This document shows, piece after piece, positions 38,395 through 61,365 of a stretch of DNA of 64,000 nt. Positions within the stretch are counted from its first letter, which is position 1. Every line of letters starts with the position of its first letter. A model generated the notes under the pieces. It did not search any database. It was not told where the DNA came from and was given only the letters and a program-made list of their open reading frames with translations. This DNA is from Dyadobacter sp. 50-39 (GTDB lineage Bacteria; Bacteroidota; Bacteroidia; Cytophagales; Spirosomataceae): assembly GCA_001898145.1 (NCBI GenBank), contig MKSR01000029.1, positions 806,001 to 870,000 on the forward strand, read 5' to 3'. The translations under genes and the position numbers were made by a program.

Positions 38395-39048
38395 ATGACG
38401 TCCAATCAGGAAAAAGCGCCTTACATTGTGGGTATCACCGGCGGCAGCGCATCGGGAAAGACCTATTTTATGAAAAACCTTATCGATGCATTTGGTAAGG
38501 ATGAGATTACCCGGATCTCGCAAGACAACTATTATCGTCCGATCCATGAAATTCCGCGTGACGAGAATGGCATAGAAAATTTTGATCTGCCCGAAACGAT
38601 CGATCACCATCTTTTTGCTGAACATATCGCCGTGCTAAGAGCAGGCCGATCGGTACAGCAAAAGGAATACACGTTCAACAATCCGCTCATCAAACCAGAG
38701 ATCCTGGTTTTCGAACCCAAGCCGATCATCATTGTCGAAGGCATCTTTGTTTTCTATTTCCCTGAAATAGCACGGCTTATCGATTTGAAAATTTTCGTCG
38801 ATGCCAAGGAACACGTTAAAATAAAACGGCGGATTATTCGTGATAATAACGAGCGCGGCTACGACCTCGACGACGTCCTCTATCGCTGGGAACACCACGT
38901 CGCCCCGACTTACGATAAATTCATCCTTCCCCTGCGCGCAGAGGCCGACATGATCATCAATAACAATTCCCGGTTCGACACGGGCTTGCAGGTTCTGATA
39001 GGCTTTTTGAAAGGGAAGCTGGAAGAACAATACAAACATTCATCCTAA
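38395..39048 (+). CDS. udk: Uridine kinase
   Basis: A 217-residue P-loop kinase that phosphorylates uridine and cytidine in pyrimidine salvage. The P-loop is GGSASGKT (residues 16-23). ISQDNYYRPIHEIP and NFDLPETIDHHLF, the nucleoside-binding segments, follow, then IIVEGIFVFYFPEIA and RRIIRDNNERGYDL. The length fits. It lies 48 bp behind porZ and 23 bp before the lipoprotein gene, so all three could be one transcript. Confidence 0.93.
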   Translation: MTSNQEKAPYIVGITGGSASGKTYFMKNLIDAFGKDEITRISQDNYYRPIHEIPRDENGIENFDLPETIDHHLFAEHIAVLRAGRSVQQKEYTFNNPLIKPEILVFEPKPIIIVEGIFVFYFPEIARLIDLKIFVDAKEHVKIKRRIIRDNNERGYDLDDVLYRWEHHVAPTYDKFILPLRAEADMIINNNSRFDTGLQVLIGFLKGKLEEQYKHSS

Positions 39049-39071: not shown

Positions 39072-39788
39072 ATGAAGAATTCTTTACACACGATTTGCCG
39101 GACTTTCGCTAAACACATCACTATTCTTGCCGTAGCATCTATCGGTTTATCCGCTTGCGACGACGCGACCGAGCCTGTTGATCCCTATGCATATTATCCG
39201 CTCACAATTGGGCATTATGCAGTATACGATGTAAATCAGGAGGTTTATTCGACCGGGCAGTCGGCGCCGGTTGTCACGAAATGGCAGGAGCGGGACGAAG
39301 TAGACAGGATTGCTTCGGATTCGTCCGGGATCGTCACCTACATCATCGCAAGATCAACCCGCAATTCGTCAGCGGATTACTGGCAAAAAGTCAAAGAGTA
39401 TGCCGTGCATAAATATCCCGACAAGCTTCTGACCAATATCGACAACCAGCCTTTTCTTTCGCTTACCTTCCCGATCGATTCGCGTACTACCTGGAATGGG
39501 AACAGCTACAACAACCAGGACGAACAGGATAGCTACTATGAGCCGGGAGTGAAATCTGTCAAAATCGGAGAGCAGTCATTTGACAATGTGCTGACGGTTG
39601 TTGAGCGCAAAGACACGTCGATCATCAACAGGTATGTGACCATCAAGCAATACAGCCCGGGGGTGGGCCTTATTTCCGATGACCAAACCGCCTTTGAACT
39701 TTGCCAGAATGACGAGTGCATCGGGTCAGGGAAAGTAGAATCCGGCATCCACAAGACGCGTAAGATCGTGGAGTTCGGTAACCGGTAA
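39072..39788 (+). CDS. Hypothetical lipoprotein
   Basis: A 238-residue protein with a signal ending in the lipobox LSAC at Cys29 or so (ASIGLSACDDATEP). The mature part begins with YAYYPLTIGHYAVYDVN, a pattern seen in many uncharacterised Cytophagales lipoproteins that have a Y-P-L-x-G-x-x-x-x-Y-D start. The rest is beta-rich. No catalytic motif is visible. It follows udk by 23 bp. It ends 136 bp before the lasso-precursor gene and shows no resemblance to a lasso B protein. Confidence 0.75.
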   Translation: MKNSLHTICRTFAKHITILAVASIGLSACDDATEPVDPYAYYPLTIGHYAVYDVNQEVYSTGQSAPVVTKWQERDEVDRIASDSSGIVTYIIARSTRNSSADYWQKVKEYAVHKYPDKLLTNIDNQPFLSLTFPIDSRTTWNGNSYNNQDEQDSYYEPGVKSVKIGEQSFDNVLTVVERKDTSIINRYVTIKQYSPGVGLISDDQTAFELCQNDECIGSGKVESGIHKTRKIVEFGNR

Positions 39789-39924
39789 TCCTGTCAACAA
39801 CGTCCGTTCGGACATTCAAAACTTGATTTTTTCATATTCGTTTCGAATAAGATTTGCAAATTCAATTTATATTAATAAATTTACGACGGATACTGGTAAT
39901 AATCATTCATTCAACCGATAAACA

Positions 39925-40080
39925 ATGAAAACATTGACATCGCACTCTACACAGACGAAAAAGTCTTACCGCAAACCGGTCCTCGTTCTTCATGGTGACG
40001 TTAGAAAACTCACTAAAGGTAAACTGGGAAGCCTCACCGATTTGGATCCTTCTGACAACCACTTCTCAACTGAGGGGTAA
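39925..40080 (+). CDS. Lasso-peptide precursor (A gene), 51 codons
   Basis: Encodes a 51-residue peptide below the usual ORF-size cut-off. The leader (residues 1-31) contains Y15-RK-P18-V-L20-VLH-G24-DVRKL-T30, an exact fit to the lasso leader consensus Y-x2-P-x-L-x3-G-x5-T. Thr30 is at position -2 of the cleavage site, as is nearly universal. The core would begin at Gly32: ring part GKLGSLTD with Asp at position 8 as the isopeptide acceptor, then tail LDPSDNHFSTEG. The next gene codes for an asparagine-synthetase-like protein, the usual ring-closing partner. Maturation needs a leader-binding and protease (B) activity, which this window lacks. A plausible -7-like box TAAGATTTG lies upstream but is one base too long. 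Confidence 0.85.
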   Translation: MKTLTSHSTQTKKSYRKPVLVLHGDVRKLTKGKLGSLTDLDPSDNHFSTEG

Positions 40081-40110: not shown

Positions 40111-42048
40111 TTGGTACTCCAAGGCATTGTTTATTACGATGAAAGCATCAAAAATCAGATTGCTTTCGACAATAAATACGATAATAAGCTTGCCGGTGCC
40201 AACTTTACAGTTTTAGAAGCAGGGTTCGGGAAAAATTCCTTCTACTCTTTCTTACTGGGAATTCAAAAGAAAAACCTTTCTGAGCCGGAATGTTTAAGCA
40301 ATATAAAACTTAAACATTCCGGCTCTTTTTATGCCCGGTTGAAGACCCTGGATGCATCCGGAGAATCGCTCTCCGTTGGCGCCTGGATCGACGAAACGCA
40401 ACAAACCACCAGCCTGGCAAGGGACGCATTCAGTCCGGTACCACTTTATTATCTCCATATCCCAGGCAAATTTTCCATTTTTTCGTCCAGCTTATCCTCC
40501 ATCACCGGGCTTGACTTGGTCAGAAAGGATTACCTGGAACCGGATTTATTCCAGATCCTTGCACATCTTGACCTGAGAAAGGAACGTGCACTATCCCATT
40601 CCAACGGGACTTTTTACGCACACATCAAGTCAGTGCCGCCGGGTCATATGGTTGAATTGAGCAGTTCGGGGGCAAGCATTCAGCGCTATGTTTCGTTTAA
40701 TGCATCGAAATGGAGTTCGGTCAGAACAGCCGGCGAGATAGGCGAAGCACTGTTTGACGTGTTCCGGCAAAGCGTCGACCGATGTTCGCTGGATAGCGGT
40801 GGAAAGCCGTTTGCATCACATTTAAGCGGCGGCCTCGATTCATCTTCCGTTAGCGCGATGCTAAGGTTCAATAATCCGGATGCCGCTATTCATACCCTTC
40901 ATAATAAATCCAGATACCCGGATACCGACGAAAGTCACTTTGCGCAGGCGGTTGCGGCAAAAATCCACTCCGTGCACCATGAAGTGTTTCAATCCGAGGA
41001 GGATTTTGAGCTCATCAGGCTGCAAACCTCGCTCTCAGCACAGCCACTGGCCTCCCGGCTGTCGCCGGCGCTCCTATCTACGATGCTGCTATACGGCAGG
41101 GATCTAGGCTGCAAAGTGCTTCTGAACGGCAATGGCGGCGACTCGATCATTGGTAGTGGTATGGAGATATTCCAGCATGCTTTCGAGACCAAAAACTGGG
41201 CGCTCTTGAAAGAAATACTGGCCAAACGGGTACCCTACTTCAATGCTGCGCCCTATCCGGGATGGGAGTCGTTCCCGGCAGAAAAGCAGCACTTCCTGGT
41301 CAGGCAATTTTACTATTATAACCGCATCACCCGATCCGGACGTAGTCCTTTGGCGCTTGCGAGAACCTACGCCGAACTCGCCAAAAACCTGGATTTATCG
41401 CATACGTACATGATGAGGCGCGGTATCACAAGCCTGCTCAACAGGCGAAATAAGCCCAATGTGCATGGGCAAGTGAACCTCGCGAACAACGAACTGCTGG
41501 AATTAACAGATACCGGACCCCAGTTTTCTACCACGCGTTCACTTCTAGGCGAGCTCGATCCGATACAATTTGGAGCGCTATTTGACGACGTATTCAGTCC
41601 AATGGTAAGCTGGTCTACCGAAAACCTTTTCGATCTTGGAAACCACTACGGCATCAGCAGCAGATCACCTATGAAGGACAAGGCATTGTTCGAACTATGC
41701 ATGTCTGTTCCGGATTTGATCAAATATGGAGAAGGAAGGGGACGCGAGCATTTCAGGATGGCCATGAAGCGTTTGCTTCCCCATGAAGTTTACAACCGCA
41801 CGAGCAAAGCCACACTATCTTCACAATATGGGCAGGAAATGACATCCAGGCTCTGGAACCAGGCTAAGGAATCTGTAATGGATTCTTCACGGCTTTGGGA
41901 CTTTGTTGACCGGGCAAAGCTCCTGCATGAAGTAAGCATCCTCAACAATCCTCATGTAGCCTATTCCCAGAAAACAAAGACCTGGCTGCATATAACCCGG
42001 GCTATTACCCTGTCGTGCTGGCTCGACTGGCTATCCGGAAACAAATAG
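40111..42048 (+). CDS. Asparagine-synthetase-like lasso cyclase (C gene)
   Basis: 645 residues if translation starts at the TTG at 40111. The synthetase domain is intact: the ATP-binding SGGLDSS (residues 239-245), LLNGNGGDSIIG (around 335) and a C-terminal REHFRMAMKRLLPHEVYN. The N-terminal part lacks the Cys2 of glutaminase domains but keeps FLARD-like LARDAFSPVPLYY and VPPGHMVEL, as expected for a lasso cyclase that activates the Asp side chain with ATP and closes the ring on Gly1. The frame is open straight from the precursor stop and no ATG exists near its beginning, so the start is unsettled. A terminator-like hairpin lies inside (40282-40330). Confidence 0.85.
   Translation: MVLQGIVYYDESIKNQIAFDNKYDNKLAGANFTVLEAGFGKNSFYSFLLGIQKKNLSEPECLSNIKLKHSGSFYARLKTLDASGESLSVGAWIDETQQTTSLARDAFSPVPLYYLHIPGKFSIFSSSLSSITGLDLVRKDYLEPDLFQILAHLDLRKERALSHSNGTFYAHIKSVPPGHMVELSSSGASIQRYVSFNASKWSSVRTAGEIGEALFDVFRQSVDRCSLDSGGKPFASHLSGGLDSSSVSAMLRFNNPDAAIHTLHNKSRYPDTDESHFAQAVAAKIHSVHHEVFQSEEDFELIRLQTSLSAQPLASRLSPALLSTMLLYGRDLGCKVLLNGNGGDSIIGSGMEIFQHAFETKNWALLKEILAKRVPYFNAAPYPGWESFPAEKQHFLVRQFYYYNRITRSGRSPLALARTYAELAKNLDLSHTYMMRRGITSLLNRRNKPNVHGQVNLANNELLELTDTGPQFSTTRSLLGELDPIQFGALFDDVFSPMVSWSTENLFDLGNHYGISSRSPMKDKALFELCMSVPDLIKYGEGRGREHFRMAMKRLLPHEVYNRTSKATLSSQYGQEMTSRLWNQAKESVMDSSRLWDFVDRAKLLHEVSILNNPHVAYSQKTKTWLHITRAITLSCWLDWLSGNK
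40282..40330 (+). terminator. Terminator-like hairpin between precursor and cyclase body
   Basis: Perfect 17-bp arms (40282-40298 and 40309-40325) with a 10-nt loop, then TTTTT (40326-40330). It lies 200 bp past the precursor stop and inside the cyclase reading frame. In lasso clusters a hairpin after the A gene lets the precursor message exceed that of the enzymes; here it would act in the same way. Confidence 0.8.
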
Positions 42049-42101: not shown

Positions 42102-45100
42102 TTATTTGATAATCACAACTCTTCCGGTTTTTTCGAACTCGGTCCCGGAGCCGCTTTTGGGAGTAATCATAATCTTATAGACATACAAACCAGAGTGCAA
42201 CGAGTCAACCTGCATGTACCAAGTAAATTTCTCGGTGACATCGGCATCTACCACCTTTTCAAAGACCTGGTTGCCGTTCTTGTCAAAAAGAAGAGATCTT
42301 ACCTGCGCCTTTTCCATTCCCAGTTTACCCATTTGGGCCTCAAATCGCAGATAAGAAAAAGCCGGGTTCGGACTTGCTACCACTTCTATATTCGCCGCTT
42401 CTTCTTCTTTCACCTCGAAGACCAACTGGTAAGGCTGCACAGTGGCATTCGACGCCATATCCCTTCCATTCACCAGCAACTCGTACTTGCCGGCAACCAA
42501 ACCGCTTGACGCGTAACTTACACGAATTGCGTGGCTGCTCACCGAATCAATCGTGAGATTCGGGTTCGAGAAATTCACCTTTTTAAACTTGCAGCTTTCA
42601 TCCTGGCAAGGCTTCAAAAAGACTTCTATCAGCGTTGTATCGGAGAATATCAATCTATCGTCTTCCAGATCGACAGTGATCTTAGGGTTAGGCCTGATCA
42701 CCTCGTTATTCTCCAACTGCCTGCCGTTGAAATTCACACTTAATACCGGCGGCACGATATCCTTGATGGCTGTGGCCGGGTATGCTTTCTCGTCTTTTGC
42801 GCGATCCCAGTCGATCAGCAATTCAGCAATGTTGTTTTTCCGCGTTACCTCCGACAGCGTGATTTTCGGATCGATGATGACCTGGACGCTCTGGAGAATT
42901 TTATCGTTTGTAAAAGTCACTTCCAGGGTGTCGGAATAAGCAAAAGCCTGAACAACCTCCGCCTTGGTCACATTACCTTCTTTATAGCGATAGGTAATCT
43001 CCACCGGCACATTTCCCCCTTTTTGGAACCTCCCTTTATTGGAAAAAATGGTCCGCAATCTGAGTTTCGCAGAGTTCCCGATTGTCTTGTCTCCCAATTC
43101 CGAATGGATGGAAATGCCCTCGTCGGCATCCACCGCATAGTCGGGCTTGTCAACGGTGACCAGTTTAAGTGCAGGGTCCCCTTGTAACAGCGACTGGTGA
43201 ATGTTTGCAATAGCATACACTCCCTTGTCCTCACTCGCTATTTTCTGCGCGACTGCCACCTGAATTTTCCCGATCGGCTGGTTCAGCATTTCAGCATTGG
43301 AAAACATGTCGTGGTACAGCTGGATAAGGTAATCTTCGGAAGGGCTTACGAAGCTCTCGAACGAGTTCGCCACCACCACGATTGCCCCGCGGCGGGCAGC
43401 CAACAACCAATCCATCGACAATGAGTACCTGTCAACACCAGAGTTGGCCGCAGGATTAAACCTGCCGCTGAAAATATTCCCTACACCACAGCCATTGAAA
43501 TACATCATAGGGTATCGCAACGAATTGGCATAAGCTCTCGCTTCGTCGGTGGCATAGCCCATGTCGAGGTCGGTAATCGTCGTCGAACCGTGTCCGAAAT
43601 AGGTAATCAGCCCCACACCCGCATTCACCTCCGGCGTAATGTTTACTTTTTCCGCTTCAATAATTGGCTGCTGTTTAACGAAAGCAGTAACCTGCCCGCC
43701 TACCGGCCCGTTCGTGATAACGGGTACCAGGTTTTTCAGCATGTTTTTAAGCTGCGTAATTTCGGAAGTAGACTTACCACCATTCAAATGAAGCACCCTT
43801 TTTCTCCATCCCAGGTCTCCAAAGGCATTCGATTCATAGTCCTTTACTTTTTGCAGATAGTCCCTGATATTATCATTCGTCACCGCCGGAATCCTGCCGA
43901 TCGGAACACTCGGGACGTTAGCCGGAGTGCCTCCGAGGCCTTCTACCAGGAGCACATCGGAGCCGGGATATCCCACTGTCGGAACCTCGTCGGGAAGCTC
44001 CCGCTTCATCCTTTCATTATGCGTGATGGATTTACCAATGAGCAAAAGTTGTTTATCCCTGCTTCCCTGCGTAAGCATATAGTCGACAAACCTGCGAATA
44101 CCTACCGGACTCGGCTCGCCATAGTTAAATTGATTGTAAATGTCCTTGATACTTACTACCAATGTCTTGTAACCGCCGCCCGCTGCACTGGCGCGGTAGT
44201 CGGCGTACAGTTTGGCACCTTCCAGCAAGTTCTCGCTGGTAATGATCACATAATCGGCGTTGGCCAGGTCCGGTTTAGTGAATTTCCCGGAGGTGATATT
44301 CGCAGCTGCTACCGTAGCGACATCAGCGGTAACCAGGAGGTTTGCGACTTTGCCGGTTTGACGGTTAAATGTAAGATCCGACAGATTTCCTGAAAGAATA
44401 ACCGGTCGGTCTTCATTCGTGATATCTAATACCTGGGCACCGGCTGGTCCATTCTTTAAACTAATTCTGGAAGTTTTGGAGCTGGTTGCGGGAACCGTAA
44501 ACGTTATCGTTTTCAGCCCTGCCATGTCCAGGTCACGTGCATACGTGATCGTAAAATAGGCCGGCGAGAAACGGTCCAGTGCATCCGAACTGACGGATTT
44601 TAATGTCAACACTCCTTTTCCGTCTGTGCCCACATCACCCGCCTTCAATTCAAATGAAGTTTCTACGCCTGCAAATCCCGAGTTGCTGAGCGTCTGCACC
44701 AGCCTCAGCGACTGATCATTTTTTCCGACGTAAATTTCAATGTTCCTGCTATTGTTACTCCGCCCGTGAACCAACAGCTTTAAAACAGCCTTTTCGGCAC
44801 CGGATTTACCCAAACCAGGAAGTGTAAATGCATACGGCACCTGCTTCTGACCGAGCTGCACTTTCCCGGTTTTGCTGGCAGCCAGCTCGAAGAAACTATT
44901 GAAGAAATTGGGACGTACGGGGTATTCGGTACTGAGCGAATACTCCTGCAAGAATACATTCTGAGCTACCGCAGTCGCTTCGGTTAACTGCGCCGCGGCG
45001 GGATCGGTAGCCACATTTTGCGTTTCGGCACGCAATCCGGCTGCATCGCCGTTGACCAGAAAGTAAGCGCTCTGATCGGAATAATAGCTAAAAAAGGGGT

Positions 45101-45452
45101 TTTTACGGGAGCTCATCGGCCGGTAAAACAGCGAGTCTGTCTGACCATCATTCGGCACCGCGTAAAACAATATTTCATTTTTGGAGGTACTTAAAATAGC
45201 CACCTGTTTTCCGCGATGCCACAATTGCAGCTTTGAAGGATCACTGGTGGAAAAACCGGCAGGAAGCGAAGCGAAGGGGACTTTGTAAATCCCCTTCTGT
45301 GCAATCGCTATTTTGACAAATGGCTTATCGTAAGAAATCCAACTATTAGCGTATGGCGCCCCCCATTGAGCTAGTACTTTGAAACATTGCAAAAACAATA
45401 TCGCGGTAATAGCTATCCTCGTCTTCAAACCTGTGTGGAACATACTGAACAA
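42102..45452 (-). CDS. Gingipain-like C25 cysteine peptidase with T9SS sorting domain
   Basis: A 1116-residue secreted protein with a signal peptide (TAILFLQCFKVLAQ). A beta-rich N-terminal region ends around residue 400 and includes GVPNDGQTDSLFYR-type sequence shared with the next gene. The caspase-like C25 domain has the His in ITYFGHGS (about 619) and the Cys in FNGCGVGN (about 655). Ig-like domains and a T9SS sorting domain follow (ASPNPAFSYLRFEAQ, then SLHSGLYVYKI). It should be exported by type IX secretion and anchored or released at the surface. It is not the sortase PorU, which lacks this C-terminal signal. Its paralogue lies 38 bp upstream. Confidence 0.87.
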   Translation of the reverse strand: MFSMFHTGLKTRIAITAILFLQCFKVLAQWGAPYANSWISYDKPFVKIAIAQKGIYKVPFASLPAGFSTSDPSKLQLWHRGKQVAILSTSKNEILFYAVPNDGQTDSLFYRPMSSRKNPFFSYYSDQSAYFLVNGDAAGLRAETQNVATDPAAAQLTEATAVAQNVFLQEYSLSTEYPVRPNFFNSFFELAASKTGKVQLGQKQVPYAFTLPGLGKSGAEKAVLKLLVHGRSNNSRNIEIYVGKNDQSLRLVQTLSNSGFAGVETSFELKAGDVGTDGKGVLTLKSVSSDALDRFSPAYFTITYARDLDMAGLKTITFTVPATSSKTSRISLKNGPAGAQVLDITNEDRPVILSGNLSDLTFNRQTGKVANLLVTADVATVAAANITSGKFTKPDLANADYVIITSENLLEGAKLYADYRASAAGGGYKTLVVSIKDIYNQFNYGEPSPVGIRRFVDYMLTQGSRDKQLLLIGKSITHNERMKRELPDEVPTVGYPGSDVLLVEGLGGTPANVPSVPIGRIPAVTNDNIRDYLQKVKDYESNAFGDLGWRKRVLHLNGGKSTSEITQLKNMLKNLVPVITNGPVGGQVTAFVKQQPIIEAEKVNITPEVNAGVGLITYFGHGSTTITDLDMGYATDEARAYANSLRYPMMYFNGCGVGNIFSGRFNPAANSGVDRYSLSMDWLLAARRGAIVVVANSFESFVSPSEDYLIQLYHDMFSNAEMLNQPIGKIQVAVAQKIASEDKGVYAIANIHQSLLQGDPALKLVTVDKPDYAVDADEGISIHSELGDKTIGNSAKLRLRTIFSNKGRFQKGGNVPVEITYRYKEGNVTKAEVVQAFAYSDTLEVTFTNDKILQSVQVIIDPKITLSEVTRKNNIAELLIDWDRAKDEKAYPATAIKDIVPPVLSVNFNGRQLENNEVIRPNPKITVDLEDDRLIFSDTTLIEVFLKPCQDESCKFKKVNFSNPNLTIDSVSSHAIRVSYASSGLVAGKYELLVNGRDMASNATVQPYQLVFEVKEEEAANIEVVASPNPAFSYLRFEAQMGKLGMEKAQVRSLLFDKNGNQVFEKVVDADVTEKFTWYMQVDSLHSGLYVYKIMITPKSGSGTEFEKTGRVVIIK

Positions 45453-45490: not shown

Positions 45491-48448
45491 CTATTTCTTG
45501 AAAATCTTGCGCTGATATACGTCACCATTTTCAGTAGAAACCTTGATGATGTATTCGCCCGAAGGAAGGTTTTCAAGATTAACCTTTGTTCCCTTGCCAC
45601 CTCTCTGATAGAATCTTGCTTTCTGATCCATAATGTCCCAGCTCTTGATTTTGGTCGGTACATTCAATTTCAGATCGACCTTGTCGGTAGCAGGGTTCGG
45701 CCAAACCACCAGGGCAGACGTACCTTCTCTCGTAACGGACACCATTCTGGAATAGGTAATTTCCCCCGCCATTGTCTGGCCGTCTACCGTAGTGGCACGG
45801 TCCACTTGTTTCAGACGGTAGTAGCTGGTTCCCGCAATCGGGCTCAGATCTGTGAATTGATAGGAAGTCGACACGTCGCTATCGCCTTTTCCTTCCACCG
45901 TACCGATTTCTTCGAAATTCTTGGCATTGTAGCTTCTTTCAATTACAAAGTGGCTGTTGTTCCTTTCAGAGGCTGTAACCCAGGTTACATTCACCTTCTC
46001 GCTTCCTGCTGCTTTGGCATCAAACGATACCAGGCTCACTGGCAAAGCACCTTCCGTCACCAGAATGCGCAATGCCGGGTCTCCCTGAAGAATGACCTGG
46101 TGAACATTGGCCCGGTCTGCATTGTAGTATGACAACACCCTTCCGTTTTCGGCAGGATTATACGTATATCCCAATTGTTTGGTTTCCGCCGCCACGTCGC
46201 GCAGGATCTGCCCGATCGTGCCGCGGTTCTGGTCGTTCTGCCCGAAGATTTTCGGATACAAACGATCCAGATATTCATTGGATGTGGAAGCATAGGCATC
46301 CCAGTCATTCCCGAATACTACAATTGCACCGGCGTTCGGAGCAAGCAGCCAGTCGAGTGACAGCGGTCTTTTTCCGGACGAAGTAGGATAGTTAGGCGGT
46401 ACTACCCCGCTGAATGGGGAGAACCTGTTGCTGTAAATGTTATTCACGCCGCAACCATTATAAAACAGCACCGGATATTTGCCCGCATTCGCATAGCCCT
46501 TGGTGCCGTCTGTCGCATAGCCGAAATCATAATCCGTTACATCCACGTTTCCGTGACCGAAATAGGTGATCATACCCGCTCCTACTCCGTTCAGTTCGCT
46601 AGAAAGTGTTGTCAGGACGTTTCCGGAGCTAACCGGCGTTTTCTTTCTCTGGATCGTATCTCCCAGGAACGGCGCTGCGAAAATGGGCCCGCTGATGTCC
46701 GATAGGTATTTGGCGAACTGGTTAATTTCATCAGAGGATTTTCCTCCATTGATGTGTATCACGTTCTTTCTCCAAGCCAGGTCTTTCTGTCCCTCGTAAG
46801 TTTTAACCTTTGCCAGGTAGTCTTTAACCTGCTGGTTTGTAATCGCCGAGATCCTCCCGACCGGAATGACAGGAACATCGTCCAATGCGCCGCCAAGGCC
46901 ATCGGCAAGCAGCATATCAGACCCCGGGAAACCGATTGTAGGTATTTCGTCCGGGATCTCGCGCACACTGCGCTCGTAGTAGGTGACCGATCGTCCAAGT
47001 AATAACAGGAATTTGTCCGTGTTGCTGTCGGAGACCATGTAGTCAACAAACCTTCTGATGGCAACAGCGCTGGGCTCACCGTAGTTGAACTGGTTGTAAA
47101 TATCCTTAATCCGCTTCACCAGTGGCTTATACTTCTTGCCCGGCGATTCAGTTTGACGGTAAGTAGCATATTCATTCGCTGAGGACCACAATGTGTCCGA
47201 GGTAATGATCAGATAATCGAATGCGGATGGTGTAATCTGCTGGAATGTAACAGCCGTAGCCGTGGCAGGCAGCACCTCGGTGCCAACGAAGAGTTTCATC
47301 GCATTGCCGTTTCTTGAAACCATCATGTCAGCCGCTGAGCCGTTGATAATCCTCGGATTGCGGAAATTCGACACGTCAAGGAAACGCAACGGAGCCTCCG
47401 GGGTTACAGCTGGTGTATTCTGGATCGTGAAACGTGTATTGCCCCCCGCCGCCGGAAAGTTAAATTCGTAGGAAACCGCTCCCTGCATGTCGATGTTCTG
47501 GTCGTAAGTGACGGTATAGTAGGAAACCGAAAAGCCGTCTGTCCCTCCACCGGTCGACTTGAAGCCCAGCACACCTGCCCCGTTTGCATAGTCGGTACTA
47601 AGCAGATCGAACGGGTAATCAGTATCCAGAAAGCCCGTGACGACCGTGTTACCCACTACCCGTTGTGAGGCTGCATCTTTACCCACGTTCACTTCTACCG
47701 TCGATTGGGCGGAGAATGCATATCCCCTGCCTTTCAGGTGCACGTTCACAGCCGGAGCGGCCGATCCGTATTTCGACTTGATCTGAAATGCAAATGGCTC
47801 CTCCACATAACTGTTTGTAAAAACGTTCGGTTTGGCATTAGTGGTTCGCAGCGCCTGGTTATTCGAGATCCGGGTACCGGTTCCGGCCTTACCTTCCTCA
47901 AAGTAGCTGTTCAGGGTAGCCGGGCGTGAAGGATAAGAAGTCATGTGCGAATTCTCGATCACGAACCTCTTCAAAAACGTGAATTTATGAAACTCCTGCT
48001 TGGCGAGTCCCTGATCGGGTGCAAGCGATTCCGTGGCGGCTACCGGCCTGGGATTAGAATCAAATGTTAAAAAGTAGGTACTTTGATCGGAATAAATACT
48101 GAAATAAGGGTTTTTTCTCGTCGTAGGCAGCCGGTAGAGCAGCGCATCGGAAGAGCCGTCGTTGGGCACACCATAAAATTCGATTTCGGTATTGGAAGCG
48201 CTTACCAGGGTTACCTCTTCCCCGCGGTGGTAAAGGTGAAGGAAGTTCGGTTTATTCTTGAAAGCGTCCGGTAAGGTCACCTTGTACAGCCCGGCCTTGG
48301 ATACATGGATCTTCACCCATGTCTGGCCATACTTTCCATTCAACCATTCATTTCCATATTTCCCACTCCATGGCGATTGCGCAAATCCTTGTTGAATAAG
48401 TAGTGAGATAGCAATGAAAAAGAGAGTAGTAAACCTTTTTGTGTTCAT
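45491..48448 (-). CDS. Second gingipain-like C25 cysteine peptidase with T9SS sorting domain
   Basis: A 985-residue paralogue of the neighbour downstream. A signal peptide is followed by an N-terminal beta-rich region with GVPNDGSSDALLYRL and RKNPYFSIYSDQSTYFL, nearly the same as in the other copy. The C25 domain has MITYFGHGNVD (about 630) and LFYNGCGVNN (about 665). A fibronectin-type or sandwich region (NVTWVTASERNNSHFVIERS) and a T9SS domain (VVWPNPATDKVDLKL, LPSGEYIIKV) close it. It is the first gene of the pair and may share one transcript with the other (38-bp gap). A function in protein degradation outside the cell is likely. Confidence 0.87.
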   Translation of the reverse strand: MNTKRFTTLFFIAISLLIQQGFAQSPWSGKYGNEWLNGKYGQTWVKIHVSKAGLYKVTLPDAFKNKPNFLHLYHRGEEVTLVSASNTEIEFYGVPNDGSSDALLYRLPTTRKNPYFSIYSDQSTYFLTFDSNPRPVAATESLAPDQGLAKQEFHKFTFLKRFVIENSHMTSYPSRPATLNSYFEEGKAGTGTRISNNQALRTTNAKPNVFTNSYVEEPFAFQIKSKYGSAAPAVNVHLKGRGYAFSAQSTVEVNVGKDAASQRVVGNTVVTGFLDTDYPFDLLSTDYANGAGVLGFKSTGGGTDGFSVSYYTVTYDQNIDMQGAVSYEFNFPAAGGNTRFTIQNTPAVTPEAPLRFLDVSNFRNPRIINGSAADMMVSRNGNAMKLFVGTEVLPATATAVTFQQITPSAFDYLIITSDTLWSSANEYATYRQTESPGKKYKPLVKRIKDIYNQFNYGEPSAVAIRRFVDYMVSDSNTDKFLLLLGRSVTYYERSVREIPDEIPTIGFPGSDMLLADGLGGALDDVPVIPVGRISAITNQQVKDYLAKVKTYEGQKDLAWRKNVIHINGGKSSDEINQFAKYLSDISGPIFAAPFLGDTIQRKKTPVSSGNVLTTLSSELNGVGAGMITYFGHGNVDVTDYDFGYATDGTKGYANAGKYPVLFYNGCGVNNIYSNRFSPFSGVVPPNYPTSSGKRPLSLDWLLAPNAGAIVVFGNDWDAYASTSNEYLDRLYPKIFGQNDQNRGTIGQILRDVAAETKQLGYTYNPAENGRVLSYYNADRANVHQVILQGDPALRILVTEGALPVSLVSFDAKAAGSEKVNVTWVTASERNNSHFVIERSYNAKNFEEIGTVEGKGDSDVSTSYQFTDLSPIAGTSYYRLKQVDRATTVDGQTMAGEITYSRMVSVTREGTSALVVWPNPATDKVDLKLNVPTKIKSWDIMDQKARFYQRGGKGTKVNLENLPSGEYIIKVSTENGDVYQRKIFKK

Positions 48449-58096: not shown

Positions 58097-59164
58097 CTAC
58101 TTTTGAGTAACCAGCGCCCTGCTTCTCTTTGGGCGGACCAACGCTAGCTGTGACTTAATGCCCGCAATCTCCGCCTTCAGCGCGTCATTGCGCTGCCGCA
58201 AATGTTCTGTCCTTTTAACCAGCGCCTGAATGGCGATCAGGTTAATGCCGTCAAAATCGGCCTGGTTGATGGTCGTATCGTTACCGATCGTGCCATACGC
58301 ATCGTGCCCGAATGCTTCGAAGAAATCCTGCGCCATAGGGCCGTAATGCCGGAAAGTCGCGGGGTCCTGGCCTTTGTAGTTCCAGGATGTCAGCTTCATC
58401 GCGCCTATTTTTTTCAGAAAAGCCTCGCCGTCGACGGGCGAAAAGTTCTCTTTCCTGTTGACATCCGACAGTACCTGCCACGAGTTGCCCCCGGATTGCA
58501 GCCCCAAACCGACTGTCAGATCGCTGTTTGTAAAGAGTCGATACCCACCTGCAAACCGCATCGATAGCTGGTTTTCCGCGTTGCTTTTCAGCATCACATT
58601 CTTGGTGTTATCACCAAAAACAAATGAGCCCTGTTTGCCATCGGACGAAACCAGATTGCCGAGCGCCACGGAATTGTCACCGCTTGCGGTGGCCGATACG
58701 CCATGCGCAAATGCGTAGTTCCCAGACGCCGTTGTATTCTCACCGCTCGCAAACGCCGCTTTGCCGGAAGAAAACGTTCTCAGTCCAAAAGCCGTGGCAC
58801 CCAATCCCGGCGCGGAGACTTCAAAACCGCTGGCAAAGGAATAGCTCCCGACCACCTGCGGATCCAGGCCGCCATTACCGTCCCGCTCGCCGAGTGACCG
58901 GAATGCGCCTTTCTCGTGAAACCATTTCATTTTATGCTCCACCGAATCCGGAAAGCTTGGGTCGTAAAACGGATTTGTTTCCGGCTTCAAACGCTTGCTG
59001 GTCGACAATACCGATCCATCATGGACATGCAGCAGCTCTTCCGGCTGCGTCGTCCCCACTCCCACCTGCGCGATGCCATGCTTGGGCGCCCCTATCATTG
59101 CGATTGATGCTACCATACTTATATTCCATACTTGATGACGGAGATCAAAAAGGAAATTCTTCAT
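58097..59164 (-). CDS. Tail-fibre-like protein: YadA-type head repeats and S74 chaperone domain (copy 3)
   Basis: About 355 residues. A signal or hydrophobic N-terminus is followed by VGVGTTQPEELLHVHDG, typical of these proteins. A region of YadA-head-like 14-residue repeats comes next (GLGATAFGLRTFSSGK, AFASGENTTASGNY, AFAHGVSATASGDN). The C-terminal intramolecular chaperone domain of the S74 type has SDVNRK near 232, keeping the Ser and Lys at +5 of the catalytic dyad, and YGPMAQDFFEAFG. A coiled coil ends it. The start is ATG 59164; an upstream TTG also is open. It is one of three tandem paralogues. A trimeric surface fibre is likely. Confidence 0.82.
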   Translation of the reverse strand: MKNFLFDLRHQVWNISMVASIAMIGAPKHGIAQVGVGTTQPEELLHVHDGSVLSTSKRLKPETNPFYDPSFPDSVEHKMKWFHEKGAFRSLGERDGNGGLDPQVVGSYSFASGFEVSAPGLGATAFGLRTFSSGKAAFASGENTTASGNYAFAHGVSATASGDNSVALGNLVSSDGKQGSFVFGDNTKNVMLKSNAENQLSMRFAGGYRLFTNSDLTVGLGLQSGGNSWQVLSDVNRKENFSPVDGEAFLKKIGAMKLTSWNYKGQDPATFRHYGPMAQDFFEAFGHDAYGTIGNDTTINQADFDGINLIAIQALVKRTEHLRQRNDALKAEIAGIKSQLALVRPKRSRALVTQK

Positions 59165-59215
59165 AAATGCTCTCAAATAATCGTGTGAAATTTCATAAAC
59201 TATTGAAATGCAACC

Positions 59216-60307
59216 CTATCGACGCGCCACAATGGTCTTTTCCTGCGATCGGGATTGCTGTTTTCGGGTTGCAAACAACTTTGCGCGCAGCGTTTCGACT
59301 TCCGCTTCCAGCTCGTCATTCGTCTTTTCGAGATCGTCGGTTATCCGGATCAGCTCCTGGATTGCAATGAGCGCAACACCGTCAAAATCCGACTGATTAA
59401 TCGCCGTTTTACCACCGATTGTCCCGAGAGCGTCTTTACCGAATGCTTTGAAGAAGTCCTGCGCCATGGGTCCGTAATGCCGGAAAGATTTCGCGTCCTG
59501 GCCTTTGTAGTTCCAGGAAGTGAGCGGCATTTTTAAAATGCTATGCAGAAATTCCCGGCCATTCACAGGCAGGAAATTTTCCTTTCGCCGTACATCGGAT
59601 ATCACCGTCCAGGCATTGCTACCCGGCCCGAGAATCACCCCCACTGTAAGCGCGTCATTCGTGTAAAACTCGTAGCCACCACTAAAAACAGCTTTAAACT
59701 GATTATCCCCGGTATTCTGCGTGGCGAAATTGGTATGGCCAAAAATAAAACTTCCTGTCTGGTAATTATTCGACAGGTTAGTACCTACGGAAATACAGTT
59801 AGGCCCGTTTGTAATAGTGGAAAAACCCTGGGCGAAAGAGACATGGTCGCTCGCAATTACGCCCTGTCCACACGCAAAAGCACCTGTTTCTTCGGCATGC
59901 GTCCGCAAGCCGAAAGATGCGGCCGCCGTTCCCCGCGCGGTGTTATCGTAGCCGGCAGCAATCGAAAATCGGCCGGAGTTCAACGTATCGATCCCGACGT
60001 TATAAAAGCCTTTACCCAAAAACCGGATCGCGGCCTTTTCGCACATCCATTTGAATGCGTGCTGTACGGAATCATCATCATTAAAAACCGGAGCATAAAA
60101 CGGGCTCGTTTCCGGCGGCAGCTTCGGTGTTTTGTAAAGTACAGTGCCGTTATGCACATGCATTTTCTCCTGCGGCACCTGCACGCCGAGTCCCCATTGT
60201 GCATGCGCGGTCCCCGTACACAGACAACCTAAAATAATGATCAACGCAAGTAGTTGACCACTGCATCCCCGCAGGAATATTTGTCTAAAACTCAACTGAT
60301 CCATCAT
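59216..60307 (-). CDS. Tail-fibre-like protein with S74 chaperone domain (copy 2)
   Basis: 363 residues, the most divergent of the three paralogues. A signal peptide (LLALIIILGCLCTGTAHAQ) is followed by LGVQVPQEKMHVHNG. The head-repeat region (AAGYDNTARGTAAAS, AFACGQGVIASDHV, SFAQGFSTITNGPN) is less regular than in its neighbours. The S74 domain reads SDVRRKENF with the Ser-Lys pair, then WNYKGQDAKSFRHYGPMAQDF. The C-terminal coiled coil is longest here (ITDDLEKTNDELEAEVETLR). It lies 11 bp after copy 1 and 51 bp before copy 3. Its role is probably the same kind of surface fibre, or it adds a subunit to mixed trimers. Confidence 0.82.
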   Translation of the reverse strand: MMDQLSFRQIFLRGCSGQLLALIIILGCLCTGTAHAQWGLGVQVPQEKMHVHNGTVLYKTPKLPPETSPFYAPVFNDDDSVQHAFKWMCEKAAIRFLGKGFYNVGIDTLNSGRFSIAAGYDNTARGTAAASFGLRTHAEETGAFACGQGVIASDHVSFAQGFSTITNGPNCISVGTNLSNNYQTGSFIFGHTNFATQNTGDNQFKAVFSGGYEFYTNDALTVGVILGPGSNAWTVISDVRRKENFLPVNGREFLHSILKMPLTSWNYKGQDAKSFRHYGPMAQDFFKAFGKDALGTIGGKTAINQSDFDGVALIAIQELIRITDDLEKTNDELEAEVETLRAKLFATRKQQSRSQEKTIVARR

Positions 60308-60318
60308 CGTGTGCGCTA

Positions 60319-61365
60319 TTATTTTTTGCTAACCAAAACCCTTTTCCCGCGTGACGGCTTATCGCGGATGGCCATCTCTGCTTTTAGCGATGCTATTTCC
60401 TGCCGCAGATCGCTGTTGATCTGCTCCATCCTGCGTATCAATGCCTGGATTGCGATCAGGTTCACCCCGTCGAAATCGGCTTGGTTGATCGTTGTGTCGT
60501 TCCCTACCGTGCCGTACTCGTCCTTCCCGAATGCCGCATAGAAATCCTGCGCCATGGGGCCGTAATGCCGGAATTGTTTCGGATCCTGGCCTTTGTAGTT
60601 CCAGGAAGTGAGGTTCATTTGTCCGATCTTTTGAAGGAAATCTTCTCCATTGACGGGTGCGAAGTTTTCTTTTTTGTTCACGTCTGAGATGACTGACCAG
60701 GCGTTGCCTCCTGCGGGAAGGGCTACTCCAATGCTGGCAGCACTGTTTGAGAAGAATTTATAACCACCGGAGAATCCCATTACCATTTGTCTTGCAATGT
60801 CATTGGACAATGTTTTGCCTGTGGCAGTGCCAAATACAAATGAATAATCTCTGCCATTTGTCGAAACGTTTTCTCCGATTACAACTGATGTCCCTCCGTT
60901 TGCAATCGCATTACTACCCGCTGCGAAAGCGTAGCTGGCTGCCGCAAGGGTGCTATAACCGATCGCCAGAGAGCTGGTTCCTGTGGCGGTGGTTCTCAGC
61001 CCCAATGCAGTTGCTCCAAGGCCGGGCGCCCATGTTTCGTAACCGGATGCAAATGAGAATGCTCCAATATTCTGAGGTTCCAGAGAGCCCGTTCCTACGC
61101 GCTCGCCGACAGATCTGAAAGCACTTTTGTCATAAAACCACCGCAGGTTATTTTGCATGGCAAGCGGAATACCCGGATCGTAGAATGGATCATTTTCAGC
61201 TGGCTGGTCGGAAGTAGTCCCAAACAGCGATCCGTCATGTAAATGCAACTTCGCCTGCGGCGTCTCGGTACCGATCCCTACTTGCGCATACGCGCCTTGC
61301 GCGGACATGCCCAGAACGAGTGCTGCGAGCGCAGCCCGTCCCCAATTTTTAAATGTACCCATCAT
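60319..61365 (-). CDS. Tail-fibre-like protein with S74 chaperone domain (copy 1)
   Basis: 348 residues, first gene of the unit. A signal peptide (AALAALVLGMSAQGAYAQ) is followed by VGIGTETPQAKLHLHDG. The YadA-head repeats are regular (GLGATALGLRTTATGTS, SLAIGYSTLAAASY, AFAAGSNAIANGGT). The S74 domain has SDVNKKENF and YGPMAQDFYAAFG, then a coiled coil (INSDLRQEIASLKAEMAI). It closely resembles copy 3, so the two probably arose by recent duplication. It is separated from copy 2 by 11 bp. No phage genes lie nearby, so a cellular role is more likely than a prophage remnant. Confidence 0.83.
   Translation of the reverse strand: MMGTFKNWGRAALAALVLGMSAQGAYAQVGIGTETPQAKLHLHDGSLFGTTSDQPAENDPFYDPGIPLAMQNNLRWFYDKSAFRSVGERVGTGSLEPQNIGAFSFASGYETWAPGLGATALGLRTTATGTSSLAIGYSTLAAASYAFAAGSNAIANGGTSVVIGENVSTNGRDYSFVFGTATGKTLSNDIARQMVMGFSGGYKFFSNSAASIGVALPAGGNAWSVISDVNKKENFAPVNGEDFLQKIGQMNLTSWNYKGQDPKQFRHYGPMAQDFYAAFGKDEYGTVGNDTTINQADFDGVNLIAIQALIRRMEQINSDLRQEIASLKAEMAIRDKPSRGKRVLVSKK

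Follow-up and report, generated by a model that had tools for sequence, protein, structure and literature searches.

A short reading frame in the genome of Dyadobacter sp. 50-39 raises two related questions: whether it encodes the precursor of a lasso peptide and, if so, where the enzymes that would mature this precursor are encoded. The frame spans positions 39925-40080 on the forward strand of a 64,000-nucleotide stretch of contig MKSR01000029.1 (the window; positions refer to it unless a contig is named). Lasso clusters are expected to carry B1 and B2 beside the precursor; here, both are encoded elsewhere in the genome.

The lasA Precursor Gene

The original prediction described a 51-codon gene with a lasso-type leader motif, Thr at -2, Gly1 and Asp8, and the translation confirms each of these features. 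The 51-residue product, MKTLTSHSTQTKKSYRKPVLVLHGDVRKLTKGKLGSLTDLDPSDNHFSTEG, contains Y15-x2-P18-x-L20-x3-G24-x5-T30, with Thr at -2, Gly at core position 1 and Asp at core position 8, and it scores 25.3 bits against the NCBIfam model NF033521 ('lasso_leader_L3'; cut-off 19). The accompanying suggestion that such a gene is too short for routine ORF calls is doubtful, since NCBI has a model for this kind of leader. The leader (codons 1-31, with Thr at -2; 39925-40017, +) is kept across the genus, while the core (40018-40077, +) differs between species. This core comprises GKLGSLTD, an eight-residue ring predicted from the conservation of Gly1 and Asp8, and the tail LDPSDNHFSTEG. Its computed dehydrated mass is 2070.949 ([M+H]+ 2071.957), reproducing the values given earlier (2070.95 Da; 2071.96). 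'Class II' lasso peptides are those without disulfides; the listed features identify a lasso precursor, and the class II label originally attached to them fits a core that lacks Cys.

Several lines of evidence bear on whether a frame of merely 51 codons might match the motif by chance, a probability that we regard as negligible. In the window, a single short ORF carries the leader motif, compared with an average of 0.017 per window in 60 first-order Markov windows. The absence of a homologous small gene from relatives had been set beforehand as a refuting outcome; such a gene was found in 48/48 Dyadobacter genomes (E <= 0.01). Compared with the alleles of two relatives (G156 and G169), the 31 leader codons show no nonsynonymous and 4-6 synonymous changes, and the 20 core codons show 6 and 6 nonsynonymous changes; relative to a more distant allele (G178), 3 nonsynonymous and 9 synonymous changes fall in the leader. 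This pattern of codon changes, differing between leader and core, fits a coding gene. Together with the NF033521 score, these observations refute a chance match.

Core chemistry was compared among 51 precursors parsed from 53 cyclase modules, with G170 (frame-shifted) and G179 (cyclase cut by the contig end; locus L096) left aside. Gly1 is present in 40/51, Asp8 in 42/51 and an acidic residue at positions 7-9 in 49/51, in support of the lasso-precursor interpretation. A Gly-Ser pair falls within the first eight core residues in all 51, and a Lys within the first three in 45/51. On sequence grounds, 39925-40080 is thus a genuine lasso precursor gene, referred to here as lasA.

A promoter-like element, TTTG-N19-TAAATTTAC (39853-39884, +), lies upstream of lasA. 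The columns of its TA-nn-TTT-n-C part (39876-39884) are invariant in 18 aligned upstream regions, and TTTG (39853-39856), located 19 nt before it, is retained in most of the 18 loci. We take this element to resemble the Bacteroidetes -33/-7 promoter; a sigma-70 scan gave no match at lasA.

The Cyclase and Its Neighbors

As originally predicted, an asparagine-synthetase-like gene directly follows lasA: a PF00733 gene (E-value 1.7e-32), lasC, begins 30 nt downstream (40111-42048, +; the TTG start simply reflects the choice of the longest ORF). It encodes a putative lasso macrolactam cyclase with an Asn_synthase fold and an SGGLDSS loop. Its best NCBIfam match is the lasso cyclase model NF033535, a cyanobacterial model, at 166 bits, well under the cut-off of 525. 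The L-SGG-x-DSSS columns are invariant across 22 aligned cyclases, and in 48/52 modules inspected lasA lies upstream of the cyclase, within 400 nt and on the same strand. LasC is the sole PF00733 protein found in the genome (G000), so that asparagine would need an AsnB-independent route.

Upstream of lasA are udk (uridine kinase; 38395-39048, +), which marks the slot and stands outside the pathway, and lipo238 (39072-39788, +), a lipoprotein-like gene with a predicted beta-rich fold. The fold was not used to assign a function to lipo238; its model has a pLDDT of 89, and the best PDB matches (4fvs lipoprotein, LolA-like) reach TM <= 0.47. Downstream of lasC are two C25-family peptidase genes on the reverse strand, PorU2a (42102-45452) and PorU2b (45491-48448), the latter with a type IX secretion system (T9SS) sorting tail. 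Both exceed the 450-bit cut-off of the model for the T9SS sortase PorU/'PorU2' (NF052324; 853.5 and 588.2 bits), making them putative sortases. Further along the window (58097-61365, -), three adjacent secreted-looking proteins have related starts (...VHDGS/VHNGT/LHDGS...) and are possibly a tandem family.

PorU2 is present in 35/36 wide lasA loci (about 8 kb on each side), with both genes in 35. It lies less than 10 kb from lasC in 26/29 named Dyadobacter and 17/24 other Bacteroidota loci, these counts covering the 53 scanned of 80 loci, the rest being mostly cyanobacterial, together with Dyadobacter L274. As lasso-exclusive markers, both neighbors were rejected: NF052324 matches 149/150 genomes of the family (112 over the cut-off), and the lipo238 profile matches 111/150. 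A second lipo238-PorU2 pair, located outside the window (G000:C27:93206-97241), is without a PF00733 cyclase, since the only such protein in the genome is LasC of the window. The lipo238-PorU2 pair may be an older unit later joined by lasso genes. PorU2 and lipo238 are therefore frequent but non-exclusive partners of lasC, as both are also found away from lasso genes, and the link is positional. Possible roles of PorU2 toward the lasso peptide include export, processing, target and immunity. No exporter gene was recognized beside lasA-lasC or the B locus with the profiles applied, none of which was for exporters.

A Distant B Locus

A profile scan of the window found no B1, B2, HPr-kinase-like (HprK) or nucleotidyltransferase (NTase) gene. 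Searches of the whole genome (7.72 Mb, 48 contigs) returned one PF13471 (B2), one PqqD, one PF00733 and one lasA match. The original prediction called the precursor correctly, but did not notice that the window is without B1 and B2, which lie 605 kb off. B1, B2, HprK and NTase form a B locus some 605 kb away from lasC, with which they have the contig in common (G000:C29:239019-241883). The predicted peptidase B2 (C29:241141-241581) scores 88.7 bits against the lasso B2 model NF033537 (cut-off 33), and also exceeds the PF13471 cut-off; its Cys85 and His119 are invariant in 21 sequences. The predicted B1 (C29:241584-241883) is above the cut-off of Pfam PqqD and below those of two lasso PqqD models (61.7 vs 80 bits; 42.7 vs 70). 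The Walker A residues of the HPr-kinase-like gene are invariant in 21 sequences, and the NTase beside B1-B2 is of the NTP_transf_5 type. The NTase occurs in two very unlike lineages (45-81% versus 28-31% identity to the copy of the window species), with neighbors that are more alike (loci L125, L129, L136, L139 and L142).

The HprK-like and NTP_transf_5 genes beside B1-B2 recall the HPr-like kinase and nucleotidyltransferase of paeninodin and pseudomycoidin clusters, as these are described in passages of PMC9266682. According to the same passages, known lasso kinases modify a very conserved C-terminal Ser. By contrast with the paeninodin type, what the Dyadobacter cores keep is the Gly-Ser pair among their first eight residues. 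A C-terminal Ser as the kinase site is unsupported here, as only 8/51 cores end in Ser/Thr and the window core ends in Gly; the ring Ser would instead be the conserved candidate target. Since the B locus carries the kinase-like and nucleotidyltransferase genes, the mature peptide could have a greater mass than the core without modifications.

The Split Across Dyadobacter

The separation is seen throughout the genus. All 48 Dyadobacter genomes contain lasA, a cyclase and a B2 over its cut-off, with a single lasA match in 43/48, four in G152, and two each in G154, G096, G161 and G142. B1, B2, HprK and NTase were found in 0/36 wide lasA loci, of which 35 contain udk, whereas the identical scan found all four B-module genes and ftsH in 20/20 fetched B loci. 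One lasA locus without udk, L086 (G155), seems to have left the slot. The order at the B locus is kept, from uvrC (usually with hi0933) to an aldose-epimerase gene and ftsH; aldDH and saccDH are mostly at this locus, and absent in L128, L138 and L139. In 20 genomes, one contig carries both the slot cyclase and B2, at distances of 559-695 kb in 15 and 1.4-4.8 Mb in five (a 360-kb pair in G142 is omitted, as it involves an extra cyclase); the two lie on different contigs in the remaining 28.

A hidden second B2 near lasC was considered and rejected: PF13471 gave one match in each of the 48 genomes except G148, whose second match is weak (26.9 bits) and on a different contig from lasC. Four genomes (G152, G154, G096 and G142) have extra lasC modules yet one B2, as expected if B2 serves several modules in trans. 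Extra-slot modules (L099-L102; G152:C11:1048288) have no B2 of their own, and several differ from the slot precursors in the spacing from Thr to the ring.

Related Loci in Other Genera

In Rhabdobacter roseus (L195, L230), the genes occupy one stretch, saccDH-aldDH-B1-B2-three other ORFs-lasA-lasC-lipo238-PorU2a-HprK-NTase. The full set adjoins the flank genes where Dyadobacter has the B module alone; the stretches covered at both loci end before the ftsH flank. In three genera (L182 in Arundinibacter; L185; L188), the B module sits between aldDH and ftsH, with cyclase modules elsewhere. In Arundinibacter (G011), three cyclase-lipo238-PorU2 modules are present (L179-L181), two of them with a recognized precursor, along with an additional PF13471 gene that neighbors divergent HprK- and B1-like genes (L183). 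Clusters in Spirosoma and Runella are often contiguous.

Outside Dyadobacter, B2 is present in 31/32 genomes with a lasC-type cyclase (E <= 3e-16, a threshold of our choosing) and in 26/101 others. Within the 32, B2 lies within 15 kb of the cyclase in 18, the two are apart in 13 (on different contigs in 8 of these), and one (G138) is without a B2 match. The PF13471 match in G129 is at a contig end (28.9 bits). To judge from gene content and order, the two halves seem to derive from a single pathway that became divided, with the separation fixed in Dyadobacter.

Many precursors in other genera have a K-x-G-S-x-x-D-like string after Thr at a different spacing, so that ring start or ring size may differ there; in some lineages, both are ambiguous. 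The precursor is often adjoined by a protein of about 340-410 amino acids that matches the PorU2b profile, as seen in L195 (5207-9686) and several Spirosoma and Runella loci (L226-L246). The L195 protein has a T9SS sorting tail and is preceded by a 1145-aa protein weakly matching surface cohesion proteins.

Co-variation of lasC With Its Neighbors

Identity matrices were built from 27 of the 37 genomes with wide loci (17 for hub versus cassette, these terms denoting B1-B2 and the block of lasA-core, lasC and PorU2 genes; 26 for split counts, as one lacks porZ). Ten genomes were omitted because a gene required for the comparison was absent, split, relocated or beyond the region fetched (G170, G155, G172, G161, G166, G179, G177, G153, G164 and G104). 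Mean pairwise identity across the 27 is 91% for comB and 74% for orf655, compared with 34% for lasC and 46% and 47% for the PorU2 genes. The partial Mantel correlation of lasC is 0.84 with PorU2a and 0.77 with PorU2b (0/2000 permutations reach either), and weak with lipo238 (0.215; 0/2000). LasC does not follow the flanks (comB 0.03, udk 0.02, PorZ -0.08); before control, its correlation with orf655 is 0.52. The lasC tree has 17/23 splits in common with that of each PorU2 and 3/23 with the species tree, with which porZ has 13/23.

Individual pairs display the same pattern. G162 and G169 are nearly identical elsewhere (comB 100%, orf655 96%), yet their lasC identity is 32%; G000 and G156, no closer by orf655 (94%), have 73% lasC identity. 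For G162 and G169, the DNA is 93-98% identical between positions -120 and +60 of lasA, 56% identical over the next 60 bases and 41-50% identical beyond. The drop occurs at the same place of lasA in three other differing pairs, and is absent in the same-allele pair G000/G156. When 15-nt blocks are counted from the codon of His7 onward, the number of identical bases in six differing pairs declines from 13-15 (blocks 1-2) to 7-9 (block 4), while two same-allele pairs hold 12-15. The drop in DNA similarity begins in the late leader, at about codons 17-22, ahead of the core.

The genes of the B locus behave differently among themselves. With orf655 distance standing for species distance, B2 and B1 track the species (correlations of 0.91 and 0.76), HprK does so less (0.63) and NTase hardly (0.28), and all four keep partial correlations of 0.21-0.31 with lasC (7-64 of 2000 permutations). 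Splits in common with the species tree number 6/14 for the B1+B2 tree, 4 for ftsH and 2 for lasC. As the B1+B2 tree matches only 6/14, descent of the hub with the species is argued mostly from synteny and pairwise distances. The hub is not uniformly constant, and hub and cassette are not fully independent.

Discussion

The gene lasA belongs with known lasso precursors, and it is the layout of the pathway, with two loci forming a hub and a cassette-like block, that sets it apart. It is likely that Dyadobacter has a split pathway, in which a fairly constant B1-B2 hub acts in trans on an exchangeable cassette of lasA-core, lasC and PorU2. LasA would probably be cotranscribed with lasC. The PqqD-type B1, supplied from the locus 605 kb off, would bind the lasA leader, and the B2 peptidase of the same distant locus would cut it. 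LasC would then link the Gly1 alpha-amine to the Asp8 side chain, around the tail. In this scheme, one chromosomal slot would hold B1-B2 as a hub that changes fairly little, and a second fixed slot would hold the cassette, made up of lasA-core, lasC and the two PorU2 genes, which has been exchanged between species or retained as old divergent alleles. The likeness of promoter and early leader may serve to let the hub process all alleles.

Dyadobacter resembles lasso systems with separate B1 (PqqD/RRE) and B2 proteins in its gene kinds (A, B1, B2, C), leader motif, Thr -2, Gly1 and Asp8. It differs from them in that lasA-lasC and B1-B2 are two distant loci genus-wide, and in that lasA-lasC varies separately from the genes that flank it. 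Citrulassin is also a lasso pathway with a remotely encoded enzyme, a PAD encoded far from the cluster, as described in passages of PMC9266682; that enzyme is a tailoring one, whereas the remote enzymes of Dyadobacter would be the leader-recognition and peptidase pair. A split lasso pathway is not described in passages of PMC10352776 and PMC12636315, nor in the titles and abstract openings searched, a set outside which the lasso mining paper of Tietz (2017) falls. Within the literature covered, searches for 'PorU2' and for 'lasso peptide' with 'type IX secretion' returned no link between PorU2 and lasso peptides.

It is conceivable, although very unlikely, that the B1-B2-kinase-NTase locus serves another, unseen peptide, and that lasA-lasC is matured by a different peptidase or not at all. 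The loci are indeed apart wherever both can be placed in the genus, and the hub has no local partner, the small ORFs beside the B locus of G000 showing no full leader motif. Against this, the single lasA-profile copy in 43/48 genomes leaves no other such substrate visible, homologous B genes adjoin the same precursor-cyclase pair in Rhabdobacter, Spirosoma and Runella, and B2 accompanies lasC-type cyclases outside the genus (31/32 versus 26/101). That the enzymes act as proposed, with the product being an unthreaded branched macrolactam rather than a lasso, is likewise improbable, if slightly less so. Threading is not readable from sequence, and the context, with PorU2 genes and no recognized exporter, is unlike that of characterized clusters; the leader motif, Thr -2, Gly1/Asp8 and the B1/B2/C set are nonetheless of lasso type.

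A more serious contender, still unlikely overall, dispenses with exchange: lasA-core, lasC and PorU2 would evolve fast in place, neighboring genes correlating through linkage. Linked genes have a common history, the uncontrolled correlation of lasC with orf655 (0.52) fits such a process, and the likeness around the lasA start could reflect purifying selection on promoter and leader. It accounts poorly for G162 and G169, nearly identical elsewhere with lasC at 32%, when G000 and G156 are no closer and have 73%, and for the 17/23 splits that lasC has in common with each PorU2 against 3/23 with the species tree. Cassette exchange is the better reading of the similarity pattern, and not the sole one, because purifying selection on promoter and leader could by itself keep the stretch at the lasA start alike.

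One may speculate, with low confidence, that each Dyadobacter maintains a single hypervariable lasso cassette in which the peptide and the co-exchanged PorU2 sortases are matched partners at the cell surface, and that a constant hub in trans, by reading one fixed leader, lets transferred cassettes work at once. The lasso peptide would then be a ligand or an inhibitor of its cognate PorU2 enzymes, their attached cargo, or a kin or competition signal for which PorU2 gives specificity or immunity.

In genome mining, a RiPP precursor is usually expected to lie next to its enzymes, and tools built on gene clusters would take the Dyadobacter pathway for an incomplete one. An arrangement in which leader and hub stay constant while core, cyclase and surface peptidases can be exchanged would amount to a modular design of natural origin, of use for engineering in that one B1/B2 pair could serve many cyclases. 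The T9SS sortase-like neighbors, in turn, offer a testable lead on what lasso peptides do in Bacteroidota.
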